Below, one piece after another: positions 5,523 to 63,158 of a stretch of 64,000 nt of DNA. The notes beneath the pieces were generated by a model. It was not told the DNA's origin. It worked only from the letters and a program-made list of their open reading frames with translations, and did no database searches. The stretch is from Armatimonadetes bacterium Uphvl-Ar2 (GTDB lineage Bacteria > Armatimonadota > Fimbriimonadia > Fimbriimonadales > Fimbriimonadaceae). The position numbers were made by a program, and so were the translations under genes. Location of the stretch: NCBI GenBank assembly GCA_002162095.1, contig CP021424.1:992001-1056000 (forward strand). The letters are read 5' to 3'. The first letter of the stretch is position 1. The number at the start of each line of letters is the position of its first letter.

Positions 5523-6611
5523 TTAGACGCCCAGGTGGGCGCGCACCAAGTCGCCCACCACGCTTAGCCCGTCCTCGTCGCCCCGCGCTTGCGGCGGCAG
5601 GCCGATGACCGCCAGGGGCACGTACTCGCGCGTGTGGTCGGTGCTGGCGTCGGTCGGGTCGTTGCCGTGGTCAGCGGTCAGGATCAGGAGATCCTCCGGC
5701 AGCAGGGCCGCCTGGACGCGGGCCAGGGTGTGATCAAACGCCTCCAGGCACTCCGCAAACCCATCAGGGTTGCTACGGTGGCCGTAGAGCATGTCGAAGT
5801 CTTCAAAGTTCGCGAAGATGAAACGCGCATCTTCCGCGGCCATCGCTTCCAGGAGGGCGACCTCGTGCTCGGCGTTGCTCTGGGTGCGGGGAGTCACCTT
5901 AAATCCCCTTCCCGCAAACAGCTCCGGCACCACCCCGATGCCGCGCACGTCTTCAATCACGTCCACCAGGTTGGAGGGCGGCGGGAGCGGGTAGTCCTTG
6001 CGCTGCGTGGTGCGCTGAAAGTTGCCGGGCTCACCAATGAACGGCCGGGCGATCACTCGCTGGACGTTGTGGGGGGCCACACAGATTTCCCGCGCCGTCA
6101 GGCACATGTCGTATAGCCGCCCAATCGGGATGATGTCCTCGTGCGCGGCAATCTGCAGAACGCTATCCGCGCTCGTGTAGAGAATCGGGTGGCCGGTGCG
6201 CATGTGCTCCTCGCCGAGTTCGGCAATGATGGCGGTGCCGCTCGCGGGCTTGTTGCCCAGCACGTCGACGCCTACCTCTCGCGCGAAGGCCTCGAGAATC
6301 TCCGGCGGGAAGCCATTCGGGTAGGTCGGAAAGGCTTCCGTCACCACGGCGCCCATCATCTCCCAGTGCCCCGTCACACTGTCTTTGCCCATGCTGAGCG
6401 GACGCAAGCGCCCGAAGTGAGCGGTGGCTGACGGCGGGTACCCCGCCGAGGCCAAGAATCCCAAAGCCGCGAGGTTCGGGCAGTCCAGGCCTCCTACCGC
6501 TTCACTCACGTGGCGCAGGGTGGCGGGGCCGTGCGCATCACCAAAGTCGGCGGCGTCGGGCGTGGCGCCCGCTCCGCACCCATCTAGGACGACGACGATG
6601 GCACGCTTCAA
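5523..6611 (-). CDS. deoB: Phosphopentomutase DeoB
   Basis: Interconverts ribose- or deoxyribose-1-phosphate and the 5-phosphates in nucleoside salvage. The 362-residue protein belongs to the alkaline-phosphatase/metalloenzyme superfamily: N-terminal V-V-L-D-G-C-G-A-G with the metal-binding Asp, a later T-A-D-H-G-N-D-P-T metal motif, and the family segment N-F-E-D-F-D-M-L-Y-G-H-R. The TTG start at 6611 has a GGAGG site 7 bases upstream and overlaps the stop of the DUF4434 gene by 4 bases (TTGA). A longer frame to 6683 lies wholly inside the upstream gene and is rejected. Confidence 0.95.
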   Translation of the reverse strand: MKRAIVVVLDGCGAGATPDAADFGDAHGPATLRHVSEAVGGLDCPNLAALGFLASAGYPPSATAHFGRLRPLSMGKDSVTGHWEMMGAVVTEAFPTYPNGFPPEILEAFAREVGVDVLGNKPASGTAIIAELGEEHMRTGHPILYTSADSVLQIAAHEDIIPIGRLYDMCLTAREICVAPHNVQRVIARPFIGEPGNFQRTTQRKDYPLPPPSNLVDVIEDVRGIGVVPELFAGRGFKVTPRTQSNAEHEVALLEAMAAEDARFIFANFEDFDMLYGHRSNPDGFAECLEAFDHTLARVQAALLPEDLLILTADHGNDPTDASTDHTREYVPLAVIGLPPQARGDEDGLSVVGDLVRAHLGV

Positions 6612-53754: not shown

Positions 53755-53830
53755 GGGGATATAGCTCAGCTGGGAGAGCGCTGCAATCGCACTGCAGAGG
53801 CCAGGGGTTCGAATCCCCTTATCTCCACCA
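53755..53830 (+). tRNA. tRNA-Ala (anticodon CGC)
   Basis: Complete cloverleaf: acceptor GGGGATA pairs TATCTCC (one G-T), D-arm AGCTCAGCTGGGAGAGC, anticodon arm CTGCA-ATCGCAC-TGCAG with anticodon CGC reading GCG alanine codons, T-arm AGGGG-TTCGAAT-CCCCT, discriminator A and encoded CCA. The 3' part from 53797 is repeated at 54421 (see the repeat and finding), suggesting the gene has served as an insertion or duplication end point. Confidence 0.96.
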
Positions 53831-53868
53831 TTCCGGGTTCACTTTTTCCTTACTTGGGCATGACGGTG
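53797..53868 (+). repeat. Direct repeat copy 1: tRNA-Ala 3' end plus flank
   Basis: 72 bases running from the tRNA T-arm across its 3' end and into the 3' end of the DUF2199 gene. About 90 percent identical by eye to copy 2 (54421-54491), with one single-base gap. The core GAGGCCAGGGGTTCGAATCC is identical in both. Confidence 0.85.
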
Positions 53869-54374
53869 TCCACGATGGCGTGGTACTTGGCCTCGTCAAT
53901 CCCGTGGCGCTGGTCGATGGCCAGCGGGTGGTTGTGGTCTTCGGCGCAATAGAAGAAGGGGCGCTGGTGCCCCGGCCCGAACTGCACCCGGAGCGGCAGC
54001 CCCATGGAATCCGGGTAGCCCGGGATCTCGCAGGCCAGGGTGCCGGGTTCCGGGGGGAGATGGGAGCCGTCGGTGTCTTTGAGTTCCCAAAGCGTGCGGG
54101 CGGTGGATTCGCTGACCTCGGCCCAGCACCCCCAGCCCCACCGGCCGTCGCTGAAGGTGAAGGGGAGATACAGAACGCCCCGGATGAACCAGCGGCCCTC
54201 GTGGCAGCAGGCTTCGGTCCACCAATCCAGGTGGGCCTGGCGGGCTTCTTCGTCCAGCGCCCAGACCTCGTCCGGCAGCCGCCAGCCGTAGTCGGTAGGG
54301 AGGCCGGTGTGCGTGCCGCCGCAGTGCGGGCACACCCATTCGGGCGGCGGAGGGGTGCGCTTTTTGCCCCACAT
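53850..54374 (-). CDS. DUF2199 family protein
   Basis: A 174-residue protein recognised as DUF2199, with an N-terminal C-P-H-C-G-G-T-H motif (possible zinc-binding site, with later Cys residues) and W-A-L-D-E-E-A. The ATG at 54374 is conserved in the broken second copy, where the same start and upstream bases recur at 55377. The longer frame to 54494 runs into the repeat and is rejected. Its stop is 19 bases beyond the tRNA-Ala. Family function unknown; it is often found beside immunity-type genes. Confidence 0.8.
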   Translation of the reverse strand: MWGKKRTPPPPEWVCPHCGGTHTGLPTDYGWRLPDEVWALDEEARQAHLDWWTEACCHEGRWFIRGVLYLPFTFSDGRWGWGCWAEVSESTARTLWELKDTDGSHLPPEPGTLACEIPGYPDSMGLPLRVQFGPGHQRPFFYCAEDHNHPLAIDQRHGIDEAKYHAIVDTVMPK

Positions 54375-54420
54375 GGTGCGGAGTTTACTTTGGCTTCGGC
54401 GGCGCAAACTCAGCAGGGCT

Positions 54421-54491
54421 GAGGCCAGGGGTTCGAATCCCCTGATCTCCCCCATTCCGGATTCTCTTTTCCTTATTTGGGCGTGACGGTG
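54421..54491 (+). repeat. Direct repeat copy 2: tRNA-Ala 3' fragment plus DUF2199 3' remnant
   Basis: Copy of 53797-53868. It starts with the T-arm of tRNA-Ala (TTCGAAT loop and CCCCT stem), continues with the acceptor 3' strand and the flank, then bases that correspond to the last codons of DUF2199 on the minus strand (reading T-V-T-P-K then stop). The tRNA 5' half is absent, so it is not a functional tRNA. Confidence 0.85.
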
Positions 54492-54536
54492 CAAACAACG
54501 CCACGCCCCGCACCCTCAACGGTAAGCGCGATGCGC

Positions 54537-55166
54537 CTAATCGTGGAGGTACTGGTTTGGCATCCACTGGTACTCAGTTTTGCCATCCGCGTATCTCGTG
54601 TGGCCACCAATTTCATCCAAGTGCTCCGCATCCACGCGGGCTAATGCATTCACGAACTCCTCGAAGTTGCTTCCCCGTTCGATGAACACATAGCCATCAT
54701 GGTCAAAGGTATAGACCTTGCCGCGATTATTGCCGACCAGCGGCATCAGGAAGTAATTGCCAGATTCTGGGATTTCGCCGACCACCACATACTCCGTGAT
54801 CCAATCCGGCAGGAGCTCCCGGGCTTCATCCTCGCTCAGATCATCAAACCAGCTTTGAGCCCCGTCGCGGAGCTCGCCCCACTCATCCGGGGGAGCGATG
54901 TAATAGGCAGACGCCCTGCCGATCCATTGATCCTCGATGGAATCGCGGAACAAGCGCACGCTGCCATAGCGTTCATAGAACGCGAGGAGATGCGGAAGGT
55001 CGCCCACCTGCTGGCGCAGATCGGCCAGCGCGTTGGCGTCCAGGCCCGGCGTCAACACGTGATCGATATGCGCGATGTGTTCGCCGGCATTGGGCTTGTC
55101 ACCCGCCGCCTCGCAGACAAAGCGGGGGTTACGGTGTTGAAGTAACTGCTGCAGTTGCTGAAACAT
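54537..55166 (-). CDS. SMI1/KNR4 (SUKH) family protein
   Basis: A 209-residue protein with the SUKH-1 pattern L-P-D-W-I-T-E-Y, V-G-E-I-P-E-S-G-N-Y-F-L-M-P and G-K-V-Y-T-F-D-H-D-G-Y-V-F-I. SUKH proteins commonly act as immunity proteins against contact-dependent and polymorphic toxins. The ATG at 55166 (M-F-Q-Q-L) is preferred; the earlier frame to 55238 has no domain support. No toxin partner is visible. It occupies the place where the body of a second DUF2199 gene would be. Confidence 0.82.
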   Translation of the reverse strand: MFQQLQQLLQHRNPRFVCEAAGDKPNAGEHIAHIDHVLTPGLDANALADLRQQVGDLPHLLAFYERYGSVRLFRDSIEDQWIGRASAYYIAPPDEWGELRDGAQSWFDDLSEDEARELLPDWITEYVVVGEIPESGNYFLMPLVGNNRGKVYTFDHDGYVFIERGSNFEEFVNALARVDAEHLDEIGGHTRYADGKTEYQWMPNQYLHD

Positions 55167-55275
55167 GAGATTCCCTCCGGTGATGAACTCCTGAGTGATT
55201 CGAATTATGCTCCTTGCGGGTTCCCGACCGCTAGCCACCTCGTTCGGCGTTGTTAGCCGGTTTGGTCGCTTACCC

Positions 55276-55395
55276 CGGCAGCCGCTAGTCCTGGTCGGTG
55301 GGGAGGCCGGAGTGCGTGCTGCCGCACTGCGGACACACCCATTCGGGCGGCGGAGGGGTGCGCTTCTTGCCCCACATGGCGCGGAGTTTACTTTG
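55276..55395 (-). pseudogene. 5' remnant of a second DUF2199 gene
   Basis: Bases 55276-55395 match about 54281-54395, the upstream region, start codon and first about 30 codons of the intact DUF2199 gene, at roughly 90 percent identity. Reading from the ATG at 55377 gives M-W-G-K-K-R-T-P-P-P-P-E-W-V-C-P-Q-C-G-S and then an early TAG, so it is dead. Its 3' counterpart is the remnant at 54464-54491. The rest of the 317-base gap 55167-55483 shows no gene. Confidence 0.8.
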
Positions 55396-55463
55396 GCGCG
55401 GCATTTGAACTAAAGCGGCAAGCAACTCCGATCCACTCGCATTCAACACAGCCAAAACTCATA

Positions 55464-55483: not shown

Positions 55484-56485
55484 GTGCCAACCTCACTTTC
55501 ACCGGAGTGCTTGCACCACTGCTTGCATGGGGAGCCACATTTGACTGACATCGAACGATTCTTGATATCACTCTTTCTTAAGCCGCGATTACGAAATTCG
55601 ATCGTTGCCCCAGGTTGGTCAGACCATTGGGCATCACTGCTTGGGACTGCACCAGATGAGGTACTCACTAACTTCCAACGCATTGGCTTATTGCGGCATC
55701 CGGACATCTCAGGACAGCTCTCCGTGAAGTTCCGAGTGCCTGAACTGGCCGACCTATGCAGGTCTTATGATCTTCATCCAAGAGGCAAGAAGGACGAGCT
55801 AGTCTCTAGACTAGTAGACAAGGTTGAAACCTCTTTGTTGCAGCGGCACATAGGTACTGTTGATGCCCTTGAATGTACCGAACTTGGACGCGAAATAGGA
55901 GAATCATTCAGATCAGAAGCAAACAGCAAAAGAGCGACCGCTGAAAGGGCGGTCCTAGACGCTCTTACTAACAGAAATCTTCTCGATGCATGCAAGATCA
56001 TGTTTGAATACGAAGCCAAGCAGCCCTGGCCTCGAGCGATTGGAGCCGATTGGACACGACCAGACAAGTCACGAGAACTTGCATTACTTAGAGAGCTTTT
56101 CAGTCAACCTTCAGTGAGTGAACTGGAGCTATTAGCTGCTGGACAGGCTCTATTGTGGGGAAAGGAGCCAGCCGAGTTTCTACCAAAGCGGAGTGGACCG
56201 AGGCGGAGTAAGACTGCTGAAGAGAGAGCAGTAGAAATTGAGGCGCGGAAGCAAGCTACAATCGCTTCGCAACGTATAACATTGCGTGGCTATCTCTCAA
56301 ATCAAGATATATTGCTTGGGGTGAGTATCCTCGCCGGCTCCTGCTGCGAGCATTGCAAGTCCTTGTCCGGCAATTATACTTTCGATGAAGTGCCGCAATT
56401 GCCGCATGAAGGTTGCACCAATCCTAAGGGATGCCGATGTTGCTATGCACCGTTGACATCACTGTCTTTTAAGCATTTGACCTGA
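55484..56485 (+). CDS. SAP-domain protein with Cys-rich C-terminus
   Basis: A 333-residue protein with a SAP-like DNA-binding helix-extended-helix (about residues 84-113: V-P-E-L-A-D-L-C-R-S-Y and G-K-K-D-E-L-V-S-R-L), a charged middle, and a C-terminal Cys cluster (C-C-E-H-C-K-S-L-S-G, then H-E-G-C, K-G-C-R-C-C) that resembles the CxxC...HxxCxC ends of phage head-morphogenesis proteins. Codon use and base composition are AT-richer than the rest of the window, so it was probably transferred. GTG start with GGAG. No phage genes accompany it. Function unknown. Confidence 0.68.
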   Translation: MPTSLSPECLHHCLHGEPHLTDIERFLISLFLKPRLRNSIVAPGWSDHWASLLGTAPDEVLTNFQRIGLLRHPDISGQLSVKFRVPELADLCRSYDLHPRGKKDELVSRLVDKVETSLLQRHIGTVDALECTELGREIGESFRSEANSKRATAERAVLDALTNRNLLDACKIMFEYEAKQPWPRAIGADWTRPDKSRELALLRELFSQPSVSELELLAAGQALLWGKEPAEFLPKRSGPRRSKTAEERAVEIEARKQATIASQRITLRGYLSNQDILLGVSILAGSCCEHCKSLSGNYTFDEVPQLPHEGCTNPKGCRCCYAPLTSLSFKHLT

Positions 56486-56527: not shown

Positions 56528-57358
56528 TCAGCTCTCAGAGTGGCCCGTGGAGCCAGGAGGTCTTTGGTCGACATGAAACATAAGGAGATCGTCTATGACG
56601 GCGTCAATAGCGTCCTTGCTAAAGCTGTCGAATCTTGCGCGTTTGTTCAGATATTGAATAGCATGTATGAGCCGATCGCGCGTTCTGATGCTTTCCTCGT
56701 CGTACGGATCCTTTGGCATTCGGATCAAACTACTTATACCGATGCACAGATCCCGTATTGCAAACTGGCTAATCCGAAAATCAGCATTACCCGCAGTCGA
56801 CATCTGACGACTAATTTCTAGGATTTCTTCTAACACCTCTCTGTCGGAGCGCTTTTGACCCACAGATCGCGGTGACTCATTTTGGATGTGAAGTATATCT
56901 TGCTCCAGATCGGGCCACCATTTCTCAAATCCCAGCTTAAGTTGCATTTCAGTAAGGGCGTTTGCTTGGGAATGGCAATTGATTGACTGTACGACCTTAT
57001 ACATTTCCTCCTTCGTAAAGAGTGCTGCCTGAAACTGTGCGAGAGGACCTTCAATGTCTGCAAGCTGCAAATCATAAAATAGAATAGGACACACACGAGA
57101 GTGCTCGAAGCTCTTCGACAGCGCACCTGCTTCAAACAATAGCCACCGCGCGTCCTTATTTTTCGGAGACACGACGATAAGTCCAAAAGAAGTTGCTTCT
57201 AGTTCAGACGAGATGTCGTAAAGCCATCTAGTCCCTTTAGAAGAATCATCGTTGCTAATGAATGGCTTAATTGACTGCATGACGTTGGGGAGCCAACCTG
57301 CTAGCGCTTCTGCGATTCGCCTAGTTTCTTCTCCCGACCAACTAATGAAGACTTTCAT
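56528..57358 (-). CDS. TIR-domain protein, putative defence NADase
   Basis: A 276-residue protein whose first about 150 residues form a bacterial TIR domain: M-K-V-F-I-S-W-S-G-E at the start (strand A and box 1 region), L-I-V-V-S-P-K-N, and R-W-L-L-F-E-A-G-A-L-S-K, where the Glu (about residue 76) is the expected catalytic residue of TIR NADases. The remaining 120 residues are helical with no recognised domain. It is convergent with the SAP protein (42 bases between stops) and equally AT-rich. An antiviral role is inferred from family knowledge. Confidence 0.78.
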   Translation of the reverse strand: MKVFISWSGEETRRIAEALAGWLPNVMQSIKPFISNDDSSKGTRWLYDISSELEATSFGLIVVSPKNKDARWLLFEAGALSKSFEHSRVCPILFYDLQLADIEGPLAQFQAALFTKEEMYKVVQSINCHSQANALTEMQLKLGFEKWWPDLEQDILHIQNESPRSVGQKRSDREVLEEILEISRQMSTAGNADFRISQFAIRDLCIGISSLIRMPKDPYDEESIRTRDRLIHAIQYLNKRARFDSFSKDAIDAVIDDLLMFHVDQRPPGSTGHSES

Positions 57359-57474
57359 TTCGAGCCACTATCGCCATTATACTCTCTTCGCCCGCGGCGA
57401 GGCAGGCGAGTTTCGATTTTTTCGTAGTGGTGCTCCCTTGGATCAGGACAATAAGCGACATTGCCACCACCCAG

Positions 57475-57480
57475 TAAACT
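57475..57480 (+). promoter_or_regulatory. TAAACT -10 box for leaderless GH29 gene
   Basis: TAAACT is followed by exactly six bases and the GTG at 57487, with no Shine-Dalgarno. It marks the return to GC-rich, host-like sequence after the accessory region. Confidence 0.45.
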
Positions 57481-57486
57481 CCCGGC

Positions 57487-58800
57487 GTGGCCGAAGATCG
57501 ACTTGACGTCATTGCACACTCCACCGCGCTCACCCACGCCAAGCCCGAGTGGCTCCGCCAGCGCCTGGAGTGGTTCCAAGACCAAAAGTTTGGGCTGCTG
57601 CTGCACTGGGGCCCCTACTCGCTGTGGGATTGCTGCGAATCCTGGCCCCTCTCCCCCGGCGACGACTGGGCGCGCAACGACAACATGGAGTGCTGGACCC
57701 GCCGGGGCAAGGACCTCGCCCGGTTCCAGCGCGACTACTGGGCGCTCAACCGCGAGTTCCACCCCCACCGCTACGACCCCGAAGCCTGGGCCGAAGCCGT
57801 GGCCGATGCGGGCATCCGCTACGTCTCCCTCACCGCCAAGCACCACGACGGCTTTTGCATGTGGGACACGCAAGAAACCGACTACAAGATCACCGGCCCG
57901 GAAAGCCCCTACCCCGTGGATGTCTACAAGGGGTTCTGCGAGGCCATGCAACGGCGCGGGCTCGGGATTTCGGTGTATTTCTCCAAGGCGGATTGGCACT
58001 CCCCCGCCTATTGGTCGCCCGATGCCCCGGTGACCACGCGCCAGGCCAACACCCGCGGCACCCCGCAGTGGGACGAATTTGTGCGGTTTACGCACGCCCA
58101 AATCCGCGAGCTGATGACCGGCTACGGCCCGGTGGACGTGCTGTGGCTGGATGCGGGCTGGGTGAAGGCCGAGAGCGGCGAGGACATTGACATGCCCGGG
58201 ATGATTGGCATGGCGCGGGAGCTGCAACCCGGCCTGATTGTGGCCAACCGCACGGTGGGCGACGAATTTGAAGACTTCATCACCCCGGAACACCAGATCC
58301 CCGATGCGCCCCTGGACCAGCCGTGGGAAAGCTGCCTGTGCATGGGCACGAGCTGGAAGTATGCGGGGCCGGAAGTGTTCCGGCCGGTGGGCGAAATCCT
58401 GCGGATGCTGATTGAGATTGTCTCGAAAGGGGGGAATTTCTTGATCGGGTTTGGCCCGACGCCGGAAGGCGAGTTCCCCGAAGGGGCGCGGGAGCGGCTG
58501 CGAGAGATTGGCGCGTGGATGCGGGTGAATGGGGAGGCGATATATGGCTCGCGGGCCATTGCCCCCTACGGCGAGGAAGGCGTGCGGTTTACGCAGCGGG
58601 AGGGGCAGTGCTTTGCGTTCCCGTGCGATGAAGGGGCGGACCGGCTGCGGGTGTTGCGGCCTGCGCTGGGGGCGGAATTGCGGCTGCTAGGGTGCGAGGC
58701 GCCGGTGCCGTGGCGCGAGGAAGACGGGGCGTGCGTGTTTGCCCTGCCGGCGGGGGCGGAGGAGCTTGCCCGCCCGCTGGTGTTGGCGTTTGAATTGTGA
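57487..58800 (+). CDS. Alpha-L-fucosidase, glycoside hydrolase family 29
   Basis: A 437-residue GH29 enzyme with the family start F-G-L-L-L-H-W-G-P-Y-S, the Y-V-S-L-T-A-K-H-H-D-G-F segment and V-L-W-L-D-A-G-W, where the Asp is the retaining nucleophile. A C-terminal beta domain follows from about residue 350. No signal peptide, so it would cleave fucosides inside the cell or after uptake. A GH95 fucosidase lies about 0.6 kb further on, on the opposite strand, pointing to use of fucosylated glycans. Confidence 0.92.
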   Translation: MAEDRLDVIAHSTALTHAKPEWLRQRLEWFQDQKFGLLLHWGPYSLWDCCESWPLSPGDDWARNDNMECWTRRGKDLARFQRDYWALNREFHPHRYDPEAWAEAVADAGIRYVSLTAKHHDGFCMWDTQETDYKITGPESPYPVDVYKGFCEAMQRRGLGISVYFSKADWHSPAYWSPDAPVTTRQANTRGTPQWDEFVRFTHAQIRELMTGYGPVDVLWLDAGWVKAESGEDIDMPGMIGMARELQPGLIVANRTVGDEFEDFITPEHQIPDAPLDQPWESCLCMGTSWKYAGPEVFRPVGEILRMLIEIVSKGGNFLIGFGPTPEGEFPEGARERLREIGAWMRVNGEAIYGSRAIAPYGEEGVRFTQREGQCFAFPCDEGADRLRVLRPALGAELRLLGCEAPVPWREEDGACVFALPAGAEELARPLVLAFEL

Positions 58801-58804
58801 GGGT

Positions 58805-59380
58805 TCAATCTTCATCCGCTGGAGTCAGCGGATGGTGTTGCCACTGGCAGTATTGGAATAGCTCTTGCTCGGGCTGGCCTGAGGCGGGGTAGCCGTGCCC
58901 ATGGGGTACCGGAAAGGAGAACTCCTGCTCCAAAAAGCCCCTGGATGCGAGGATGTGAGTATAAGCCACGAGGGGGCCATACGCGTAGATGACGTTGTGG
59001 CGATCGTAGACGAGAAGACCATCGTTGTTCGGCGTTCCGATCCAGATATGGTGCCGACCATCACCTTCTAAGAAGTCCTGGAACTTGAGGAAGAAGTCTT
59101 CGAATTGCTTATAGGATTCAAAGAGCGGGGACTGGTATCGCCCTTGATCCGCGCCGGTTTTTGAGATCAAGAGGACATACAGCACATAGAACTCTTGGGT
59201 TGGAAAAGTCTTCGCGAGCGCGAGAAGCAGATCTACATGATTCCGAGATGGTCCAATGACAAGCCTCTCGCGGTTGCCGGACGGTACGCGATAGTAGATG
59301 TTGCCGTAGTCGTGCGGCGCCCCTTCGATGTTCACGTCGTACGACATGAACTTGCTTGGCTTATCCACAAATCCCTCCAT
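58805..59380 (-). CDS. Conserved hypothetical protein
   Basis: A 191-residue acidic/aromatic protein with G-N-I-Y-Y-R-V-P-S-G, R-L-V-I-G-P-S-R-N-H-V-D-L-L-L and D-G-R-H-H-I-W-I-G-T segments. No signal peptide or membrane helix. I believe related proteins occur in other bacteria but cannot name a family; the fold could be of the small immunity-protein kind (speculation). It follows the GH95 gene by 9 bases with GGAG inside the GH95 end, so it may be co-transcribed. Confidence 0.65.
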   Translation of the reverse strand: MEGFVDKPSKFMSYDVNIEGAPHDYGNIYYRVPSGNRERLVIGPSRNHVDLLLALAKTFPTQEFYVLYVLLISKTGADQGRYQSPLFESYKQFEDFFLKFQDFLEGDGRHHIWIGTPNNDGLLVYDRHNVIYAYGPLVAYTHILASRGFLEQEFSFPVPHGHGYPASGQPEQELFQYCQWQHHPLTPADED

Positions 59381-61656: not shown

Positions 61657-61697
61657 GAGGGGGCGAGGTTTGGCTTCCGCGTTAAGGAGTGAAAAGG

Positions 61698-63158
61698 TTG
61701 AAACACGGACCTCGGAAGAAGTGGCTAGTGTGGACGCTCGTTGGCGTCGCTCTCGCCGTTCCCGCTCTTGTCATCCTTTCCCTCACGACATTTGCCAGCA
61801 TGAACTTGCCCAAGTTCGTGACTTCGCGAGTGACGCAGTTTCAATACGACCAGGCGATCAAGGAGTTACCCGCCGCCGAAGCAGAAGCGGTAAAGCTTGG
61901 TCTCCCCCTGGTAGGGGCGGACATGTTGCCCAAGCCGCCTGTACGCCCGGAGGAAAACGCAGCGCCGATTCTCAGAGAAGCCTTCAAGGCCATGGAGACT
62001 GCGGCCGCCCAGGATCAGGATTGGCACTACCACATCAACATTGCTCTGGCCGAGCCAACGCCGGACAGAACCGAGACCGCCACGGTTGCGATAGGCAGGG
62101 TTTCCCCTGCGCTTGACCTCGCCGTGAAGGCCTCTCGGCGACCTCGCATTGATTTCGAAAGGCCCTGGCTCACCGAGTATCCCACTTCGGTCAAGTTCCC
62201 TGAATCCTCGCAGACCAAGCAGCTCATCTTGGGCTTGGCCAGCCGCGGCATGTGGCGCACAAAGTTCGGTCAAACCGAATTGGCAGCAGAAGACTTTCGT
62301 GCTGGCCTTGCGCTGGCAAGGTTCGCCGGCGAGGAACCAACTCTGATCTTTGCCTTCGTGCAATTAGCTTACGAGTCTTTCATTTACTTCGCAATCCAGT
62401 CTGCCCTTTCATTTCGCCCCGAGGATATTGAATTCATCAGTCGCCTAGACCGGATCGCAGCCGAGTACTCCAGCTCCCCCATAGACATGTTCAAGGCCCT
62501 GCGAGGGGATGCCTATATGGGTATCGCCTCCGCCGAACTCCAGCTGGGTTCTCACAATCGGTATGCGGAATTGAAACGAGATACGACCGGACGCGTGGTG
62601 CTAGACGGCAAGCTCGACCCGGCCTCCCACAAGCTCTACTTAGGGTCGCGCACGCGAGTCCTACAAGCTTGGAATGAAGCCTACCGAGAGGCAGGCTCCA
62701 TCAAAGACCCCATAGTTCAGGCCGAGCGTCTGACGAAAATCTTTGACTGGCATAGTCGGGATGGCGACCGCACCCGATTGCACAATGTCATTGTTCTTCC
62801 CATTGTAAATCCAGGCTCGGGGAACATTGCCGACCAGCCCGTCCGCTGGCAAGCTCTGCGGGGCTTGCTTGCCGCTTTAAGATTCCGAGCGAATCAAGGC
62901 CACTCTCCGAACTCACTCGAAGAAGCCGGATTTCGTGAAGTCGATCGATTTGCCGATTCGCCTTTTCGGTTCAACGTTGATGGCGATGCGATTGTGGTCT
63001 ACAGCGTTGGACGAGACCGGGTGGATCACAACGCGCAAGAGAGGGTGGAAGATGCCCAGGGCGAGAGGATTGGCGGGGATGTGGTGGCACGTGTGCCTCG
63101 TAAAGTCGCCGTGCCTCCGCGTGCTTCCATGGCAAAAGATAAGCCGGAAGCGCGATAA
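61698..63158 (+). CDS. Membrane-anchored protein of unknown function (paralogue 1)
   Basis: A 486-residue protein with one N-terminal membrane helix (about residues 9-32) and a large soluble, probably extracytoplasmic helical region. Signature segments are L-P-A-A-E-A-E-A-V-K-L-G-L-P-L, E-N-A-A-P-I-L-R-E-A, D-F-E-R-P-W and A-A-E-D-F-R-A-G-L-A-L-A-R-F-A-G, all also found in the next gene. The C-terminal part (S-L-E-E-A-G-F, V-Y-S-V-G-R-D) looks like a short beta domain similar to type II secretion pseudopilin-like tails. I chose TTG at 61698, 8 bases after AAGGAG, over a GTG at 61689 that is too close to that site. Confidence 0.72.
   Translation: MKHGPRKKWLVWTLVGVALAVPALVILSLTTFASMNLPKFVTSRVTQFQYDQAIKELPAAEAEAVKLGLPLVGADMLPKPPVRPEENAAPILREAFKAMETAAAQDQDWHYHINIALAEPTPDRTETATVAIGRVSPALDLAVKASRRPRIDFERPWLTEYPTSVKFPESSQTKQLILGLASRGMWRTKFGQTELAAEDFRAGLALARFAGEEPTLIFAFVQLAYESFIYFAIQSALSFRPEDIEFISRLDRIAAEYSSSPIDMFKALRGDAYMGIASAELQLGSHNRYAELKRDTTGRVVLDGKLDPASHKLYLGSRTRVLQAWNEAYREAGSIKDPIVQAERLTKIFDWHSRDGDRTRLHNVIVLPIVNPGSGNIADQPVRWQALRGLLAALRFRANQGHSPNSLEEAGFREVDRFADSPFRFNVDGDAIVVYSVGRDRVDHNAQERVEDAQGERIGGDVVARVPRKVAVPPRASMAKDKPEAR

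Follow-up and report, generated by a model that had tools for sequence, protein, structure and literature searches.

The 64-kb stretch of DNA analysed here (hereafter the window), from an uncultured bacterium of the Armatimonadota, carries on its forward strand an intact tRNA-Ala(CGC) gene (T, 53755–53830; detected with ARAGORN), preceded by a methyltransferase gene, a pairing that is also found in the sister genome G001 and in several other relatives. A spacer of 19 bp (x, 53831–53849), which recurs past a second tRNA tail, separates the tRNA gene from the stop codon of an intact reverse-strand gene (53850–54374) coding for a protein of 174 amino acids. This protein matches the DUF2199 family (Pfam PF09965) with 94.5 bits against a cut-off of 25.7 (E = 8e-27), and its structural model is confident (pLDDT 87). 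Neither profile searches nor Foldseek found a relative of solved structure, VIA-align gave weak similarities with Z below 4, and there was no match to PADLOC or NCBIfam. DUF2199 is not mentioned in the accessible parts of the open-access literature searched.

The upstream region of the DUF2199 gene (54375–54409) contains the left copy of an intergenic region, i, and ends in GGCGCAAAC. It is followed by a 6-bp hairpin (CTCAGC-AGG-GCTGAG, 54409–54423) at the left edge of a second, decayed copy of the tRNA-Ala 3' half (T', 54418–54454, forward strand), which is 92% identical to T over nucleotides 40–76. Next come a copy of spacer x and the last codons of a DUF2199 gene (Dc', 54455–54491), joined to the left flank of a further gene in a stretch that holds the junction and the right copy of region i (54476–54536). 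The gene itself (54537–55166, reverse strand) is an intact SUKH (SMI1/KNR4) gene of 209 codons (Pfam PF09346), whose product scores just above the cut-off of the SMI1_KNR4 profile (27.5 bits against 25.4, E = 5e-6). On its other side lies Dn' (55275–55397, reverse strand), a pseudogene made of the N-terminal part of a DUF2199 gene and 20 bp of upstream sequence, 91% identical to 54272–54394. The initial annotation had thus correctly described an intact DUF2199 gene behind the first tRNA end and a SUKH gene between the fragments of a second copy.

Both repeats are real. Local alignment of 53794–53868 (the 3' half of the tRNA gene and 38 bp of flank) with 54418–54491 gave 89.3% identity over 75 columns with one gap and a score of 108, where 500 shuffles reached 23 at most (BLAST E = 8e-21); the repeat of 54272–54394 at 55275–55397 is ungapped and 91.1% identical over 123 bp (E = 5e-43). 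The similarity of the two arms is therefore significant, and the mapped breakpoints lie within about 3 bp of those first proposed. The proposed duplication of a tRNA-end/DUF2199 unit is supported. The tRNA end recurs as claimed, with the correction that the second copy begins at about nucleotide 40 and holds the 3' half only. T and T' are 588 bp apart, and stems of at least 6 bp at positions like that of the hairpin occur at about 0.7% of background positions. Dn' is non-coding as a whole, with one TAG and one TAA inside, and over its 123 bp it has accumulated six private changes against three and three in the intact copies of the window and of G001. The approximately equal divergence of the two fragments (89 and 91%), together with this excess of private changes, points to old, decaying copies. 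No further copy of either repeat was detected in the whole 2.63-Mb genome, the other three matches being Ala-tRNA-like sequences, and there is no third tail or right attachment site in the window or the whole genome.

The sister genome G001 (Chthonomonas sp. UBA2785; phylum Armatimonadota according to NCBI) is 95–96% identical on both sides of the locus. Its gene order is the tRNA, a gene of 681 codons without Pfam match, DUF2199, SUKH, DUF4287/DUF5655, AHSA1, ArsR and hydrolase genes, and a fucosidase gene. G001 has a single intact DUF2199 gene with the SUKH gene directly behind it in the same orientation, and its locus contains neither a second tRNA tail nor a DUF2199 fragment. Of the 85 family genomes, these two alone have both DUF2199 and SUKH, and this SUKH gene was found in none of the others. 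The two DUF2199 proteins are 87% identical (dN/dS about 0.36) and the SUKH proteins 91%. Synonymous divergence (dS 0.21 for DUF2199 and 0.23 for SUKH) equals or slightly exceeds the values of the flanking genes (0.10–0.21), whereas dN (0.075 and 0.042) is higher than in those genes (0–0.02). The restriction of the pair to two genomes and a dS close to that of the flanking genes are consistent with shared ancestry.

Further to the right the window contains a SAP-domain ORF of 333 codons (55484–56485, forward strand; G+C 0.50) and a TIR-domain gene of 276 codons (56528–57358, reverse strand; Pfam TIR_2; G+C 0.47), both low in G+C and absent from G001 at this place. The TIR-domain gene matches TIR-TM of PADLOC (E = 3e-68), and it and the adjoining SAP-domain ORF are possible defence genes in a low-G+C stretch. 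The alpha-L-fucosidase gene (57464–58800, forward strand) forms the conserved right border, DNA identity to G001 being 95% from 57464. Since the two genomes differ in gene content between the tRNA and the fucosidase gene, this interval is variable among close relatives. The repeated cargo exchange postulated in the initial annotation thus applies to the interval as a whole; for the DUF2199/SUKH pair it is conjectural. Beyond the border, at 58805–59380 and 61689–63158, single genes without Pfam match are swapped or missing in G001, which is more single-gene turnover near the locus.

The junctions around the SUKH gene bear directly on how the pair came about. The sequence behind the intact DUF2199 gene (54380–54409) matches the DUF2199–SUKH intergenic region i of G001 at 27 of 31 positions, and the left flank of the SUKH gene (54476–54560) matches region i and the adjoining SUKH sequence of G001 at 74 of 86 (86%). 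The DUF2199 upstream region is therefore present a second time, as the left flank of SUKH, which argues that SUKH arrived alongside a DUF2199 copy. A different course of events had been proposed: after the duplication of one tRNA-end/DUF2199 unit, an incoming SUKH gene took the place of the body of the second DUF2199 gene. This would explain why the two DUF2199 ends stand on either side of SUKH in their proper order and orientation. However, in G001 SUKH lies directly beside an intact DUF2199 gene, and a copied DUF2199 upstream region would be unexpected on a foreign insert; we consider such a replacement unlikely. The presence of region i twice in the window, together with the DUF2199–SUKH adjacency in G001, speaks against a one-step swap. 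Judging from these alignments, SUKH would most simply have stood for a long time next to a DUF2199 copy that has lost its body, and would not be a recent replacement of that body.

Short repeats at the same junctions allow another scenario. The tail block with the last DUF2199 codons is bounded by GGCGCAAAC (54401–54409) and GGTGCAAAC (54489–54497); these flanking repeats have the form GGYGCAAAC, and GYGCAAAC occurs only five times in the 64 kb, both strands counted. They could represent a 9-bp duplication made when a 79-bp piece of tail and DUF2199 end was inserted between DUF2199 and SUKH, an N-terminal piece of DUF2199 being inserted separately behind SUKH, and the order of G001 would then simply be ancestral. 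Yet two independent captures from the same neighbouring gene would be needed, and the right repeat can also be explained by a short homology between Dc' and region i, so that we regard the two insertions as improbable. At the point of fusion, the last DUF2199 codons and region i have TTA(C/T)TTGGGC...GGTG in common, and the short homology TTATTTGGGC...GGTG sits at the Dc'/i junction.

The 3' ends of tRNA genes are classic landing sites of integrase islands. Comparison of the same locus in relatives demonstrated that the tRNA-Ala(CGC) gene is a real insertion hot spot. The motif formed by its nucleotides 32–76 is present in 55 of the 85 family genomes, ten of which have two to six copies (these ten include G016, with two whole tRNA genes, and G026 and G099, with copies on different contigs). 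In most of the ten, the additional copies follow the tRNA on its own strand, at distances of up to 86 kb, and in five genomes (G008, G011, G093, G094 and G038) a tyrosine integrase gene lies directly beside a tail. Arrays of four to six tails extend over 48–86 kb in G008 (2256134–2342467), G011 (575366–623573) and G093 (859820–908213), covered by loci L066, L067, L129–L131, L135 and L136. Those modules adjoining the tRNA that were read contain genes for resistance to copper and other metals but no integrase of their own, the integrase being located at a later tail. The tail-adjacent integrases of G011 (L129, 9476–10693) and G038 (L072, 11685–12902), two genomes from separate families within the order, are 98.8% identical, an indication that the element was transferred recently.

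These arrays, and the integrase-free metal-resistance modules between their tails, raise the question of whether the window holds what is left of a tyrosine-integrase element. The second tail would then be a former attR, and DUF2199 would be the cargo, reduced in size, of an element mobilisable in cis. The geometry of the tails argues against such an origin. The integrase-linked tails (class A) start at nucleotides 27–32 of the tRNA and most then carry the conserved arms TTCAAATGAACC..GGTTCCTAA, whereas the tail of the window starts at about nucleotide 40, lacks the GGTTCCTAA arms and has another flank. T and T' are, moreover, only 588 bp apart, and there is no gene with the integrase domain PF00589 within 500 kb of the locus, in agreement with the initial observation that no integrase is visible. 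The genome has four PF00589 genes, and its two long integrases (at 485 and 508 kb in the genome) are only distant kin of the tail-adjacent integrases of the relatives. A degraded integrase element is therefore quite unlikely.

A second kind of tail offers a closer parallel. In G107 (L154, 1504–1900) a solo GIY-YIG ORF (Pfam E = 2e-16) stands behind a tRNA-Ala(TGC) gene, with a second tRNA tail after it. Relatives of this gene were found in 31 of the 85 family genomes, a few of the weakest matches being no more than tRNA read-through; of 26 solo GIY-YIG loci examined, 15 are no farther than 300 bp from a tRNA gene. A tail is present at seven loci (L162, L163, L164, L165, L169, L174 and L176). 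The tails mostly start at nucleotides 39–45, about 247–294 bp away, and are often preceded by a TCCCG..CGGGA hairpin. Such units occupy tRNA-Ala(GGC), tRNA-Ala(TGC), tRNA-Val(CAC) and tRNA-Pro(CGG), two of them standing in tandem at tRNA-Pro in L174. By their arrangement they look like tiny homing units that restore the tRNA tail; within the titles and abstracts of the open-access literature searched, none describes solo GIY-YIG/tRNA-tail units in bacteria. Small units also occur at tRNA-Ala(CGC) itself, where a PNPOx gene lies between tails in G073 (L103) and short non-coding tandem units end in a tRNA 3' tail in G070 (L101) and G077 (L106). For L106, L101 and L103 the figures are an 89-bp unit repeated at 98% and spacings of roughly 150 and 300 bp.

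As far as its geometry can tell, the tail of the window resembles these units (class B) rather than the integrase elements. Its start at nucleotide 40 falls within the range of 39–45, and its distance of 588 bp is below one kilobase, yet twice that of the GIY-YIG units; it is preceded by a hairpin, of 6 bp and with the 0.7% background frequency given above, whose sequence is unlike the TCCCG..CGGGA type. The genome of the window has no solo GIY-YIG gene, its sole GIY-YIG gene being a 625-codon ORF of UvrC size. Together with the lack of an integrase near the locus, this would also fit a chance tandem duplication of the tRNA end with the gene beside it, an ordinary event for which no mobile element or other special machinery is needed. 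Such an accident seems very unlikely to us, given that the break falls within the tRNA, a feature shared by many relatives, and that DUF2199, a rare gene in the phylum (nine of 291 genomes), occurs directly behind tRNA-Ala(TGC) in another genus (G103; L075, reverse strand 5799–6522). The close relative G102 lacks at this site the roughly 716 bp that hold DUF2199 in G103, where the far end of the gene has no tRNA tail.

The observed repeats with their boundaries, the intergenic region present twice, the arrangement in G001 and the hot spot are best explained by eroded tandem repeats of units made of DUF2199 and a tRNA-Ala 3' tail behind tRNA-Ala(CGC), a reading to which we give about an even chance. 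A unit consisting of spacer x, DUF2199, region i and the tail would have been duplicated behind the tRNA, SUKH lying next to a DUF2199 copy farther downstream. This copy would then have lost its body between TTA(C/T)TTGGGC...GGTG at the end of the gene and a similar sequence just upstream of its start, a short-homology deletion that would fuse the last DUF2199 codons to the SUKH flank, and a further copy to the right of SUKH would have been trimmed to its first codons. In G001, recombination between DUF2199 copies may have collapsed the array to a single DUF2199–SUKH pair, or the array may never have been present there. We infer the number of units, the order of these events and the first arrival of the units from the arrangement that is left.

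The tandem array draws support from the tandem tail units of relatives (those of L174, G070 and G077, and the tails of G073 with PNPOx between them). Several considerations count against it. Only one close sister is available to polarise the events, several unseen deletions are required, and none of the genomes compared shows an intermediate that has two whole DUF2199 copies. At its right end the first unit resembles Dn' only as far as about 54394/55397, and the sequences past the two DUF2199 5' ends (54393–54417 and 55396–55425) align no better than chance (p = 0.17), so that no right end of the second unit can be made out. Independent insertion of the 79-bp and 123-bp fragments of the DUF2199 locus into an ancestral DUF2199–SUKH pair would, furthermore, produce the same sequence. 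A more specific version supposes that DUF2199 units are integrase-free single-gene tail units that insert behind tRNA-Ala by the nuclease-driven, tail-restoring route of the GIY-YIG units, with the nuclease acting in trans or lost, the window then holding a tandem non-autonomous array; we advance it as a speculation that is rather unlikely to be correct.

Several known systems share features with the locus. The tRNA islands of the Islander collection (PMC4383910), as described there, likewise combine an intact tRNA gene with a same-strand 3' fragment downstream and foreign genes beyond it, but they are defined by an integrase gene and a length of 2–200 kb, whereas the window has no integrase and 588 bp. 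The ssrA islands and cis-mobilisable elements of Dehalococcoides (PMC3146451; Pavlovic 2004, cited there) are reported to have tandem RNA-gene 3' ends, some units being without an integration module; they are, however, of kilobase size and moved by a serine recombinase, in contrast to the single-gene unit, decayed repeats and missing recombinase of the window. Homing elements with a partial copy of the host gene, described for fungal mitochondria (PMC7315562), also involve a duplicated fragment of the interrupted gene, but they are introns in protein genes, and the window is without a nuclease. The published account of SUKH immunity and polyimmunity loci (PMC3482391) includes solitary SUKH genes near a small gene of the same orientation; in its accessible part DUF2199 is not mentioned, and no toxin gene is seen at the locus of the window. 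The family's own solo GIY-YIG units have the same succession of a tRNA, one small gene and a tail, and tandem copies of them occur; they differ in having a nuclease gene on the tRNA strand and a length of about 250–295 bp, against DUF2199 on the opposite strand, 588 bp and another hairpin sequence in the window.

Thus, the sequence comparisons indicate that the locus probably represents a decayed small repeated unit at a spot that collects foreign genes, and not a fresh gene swap. As a decayed relic, the DUF2199/SUKH arrangement itself is of modest interest. Behind its tRNA genes the family has two distinct kinds of tails, one associated with tyrosine integrases and kilobase-sized metal-resistance modules and the other with sub-kilobase units and solo GIY-YIG genes. 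If the DUF2199 locus is of the second kind, very small genes would gather at tRNA ends without an integrase, by a mechanism that would be directly testable.
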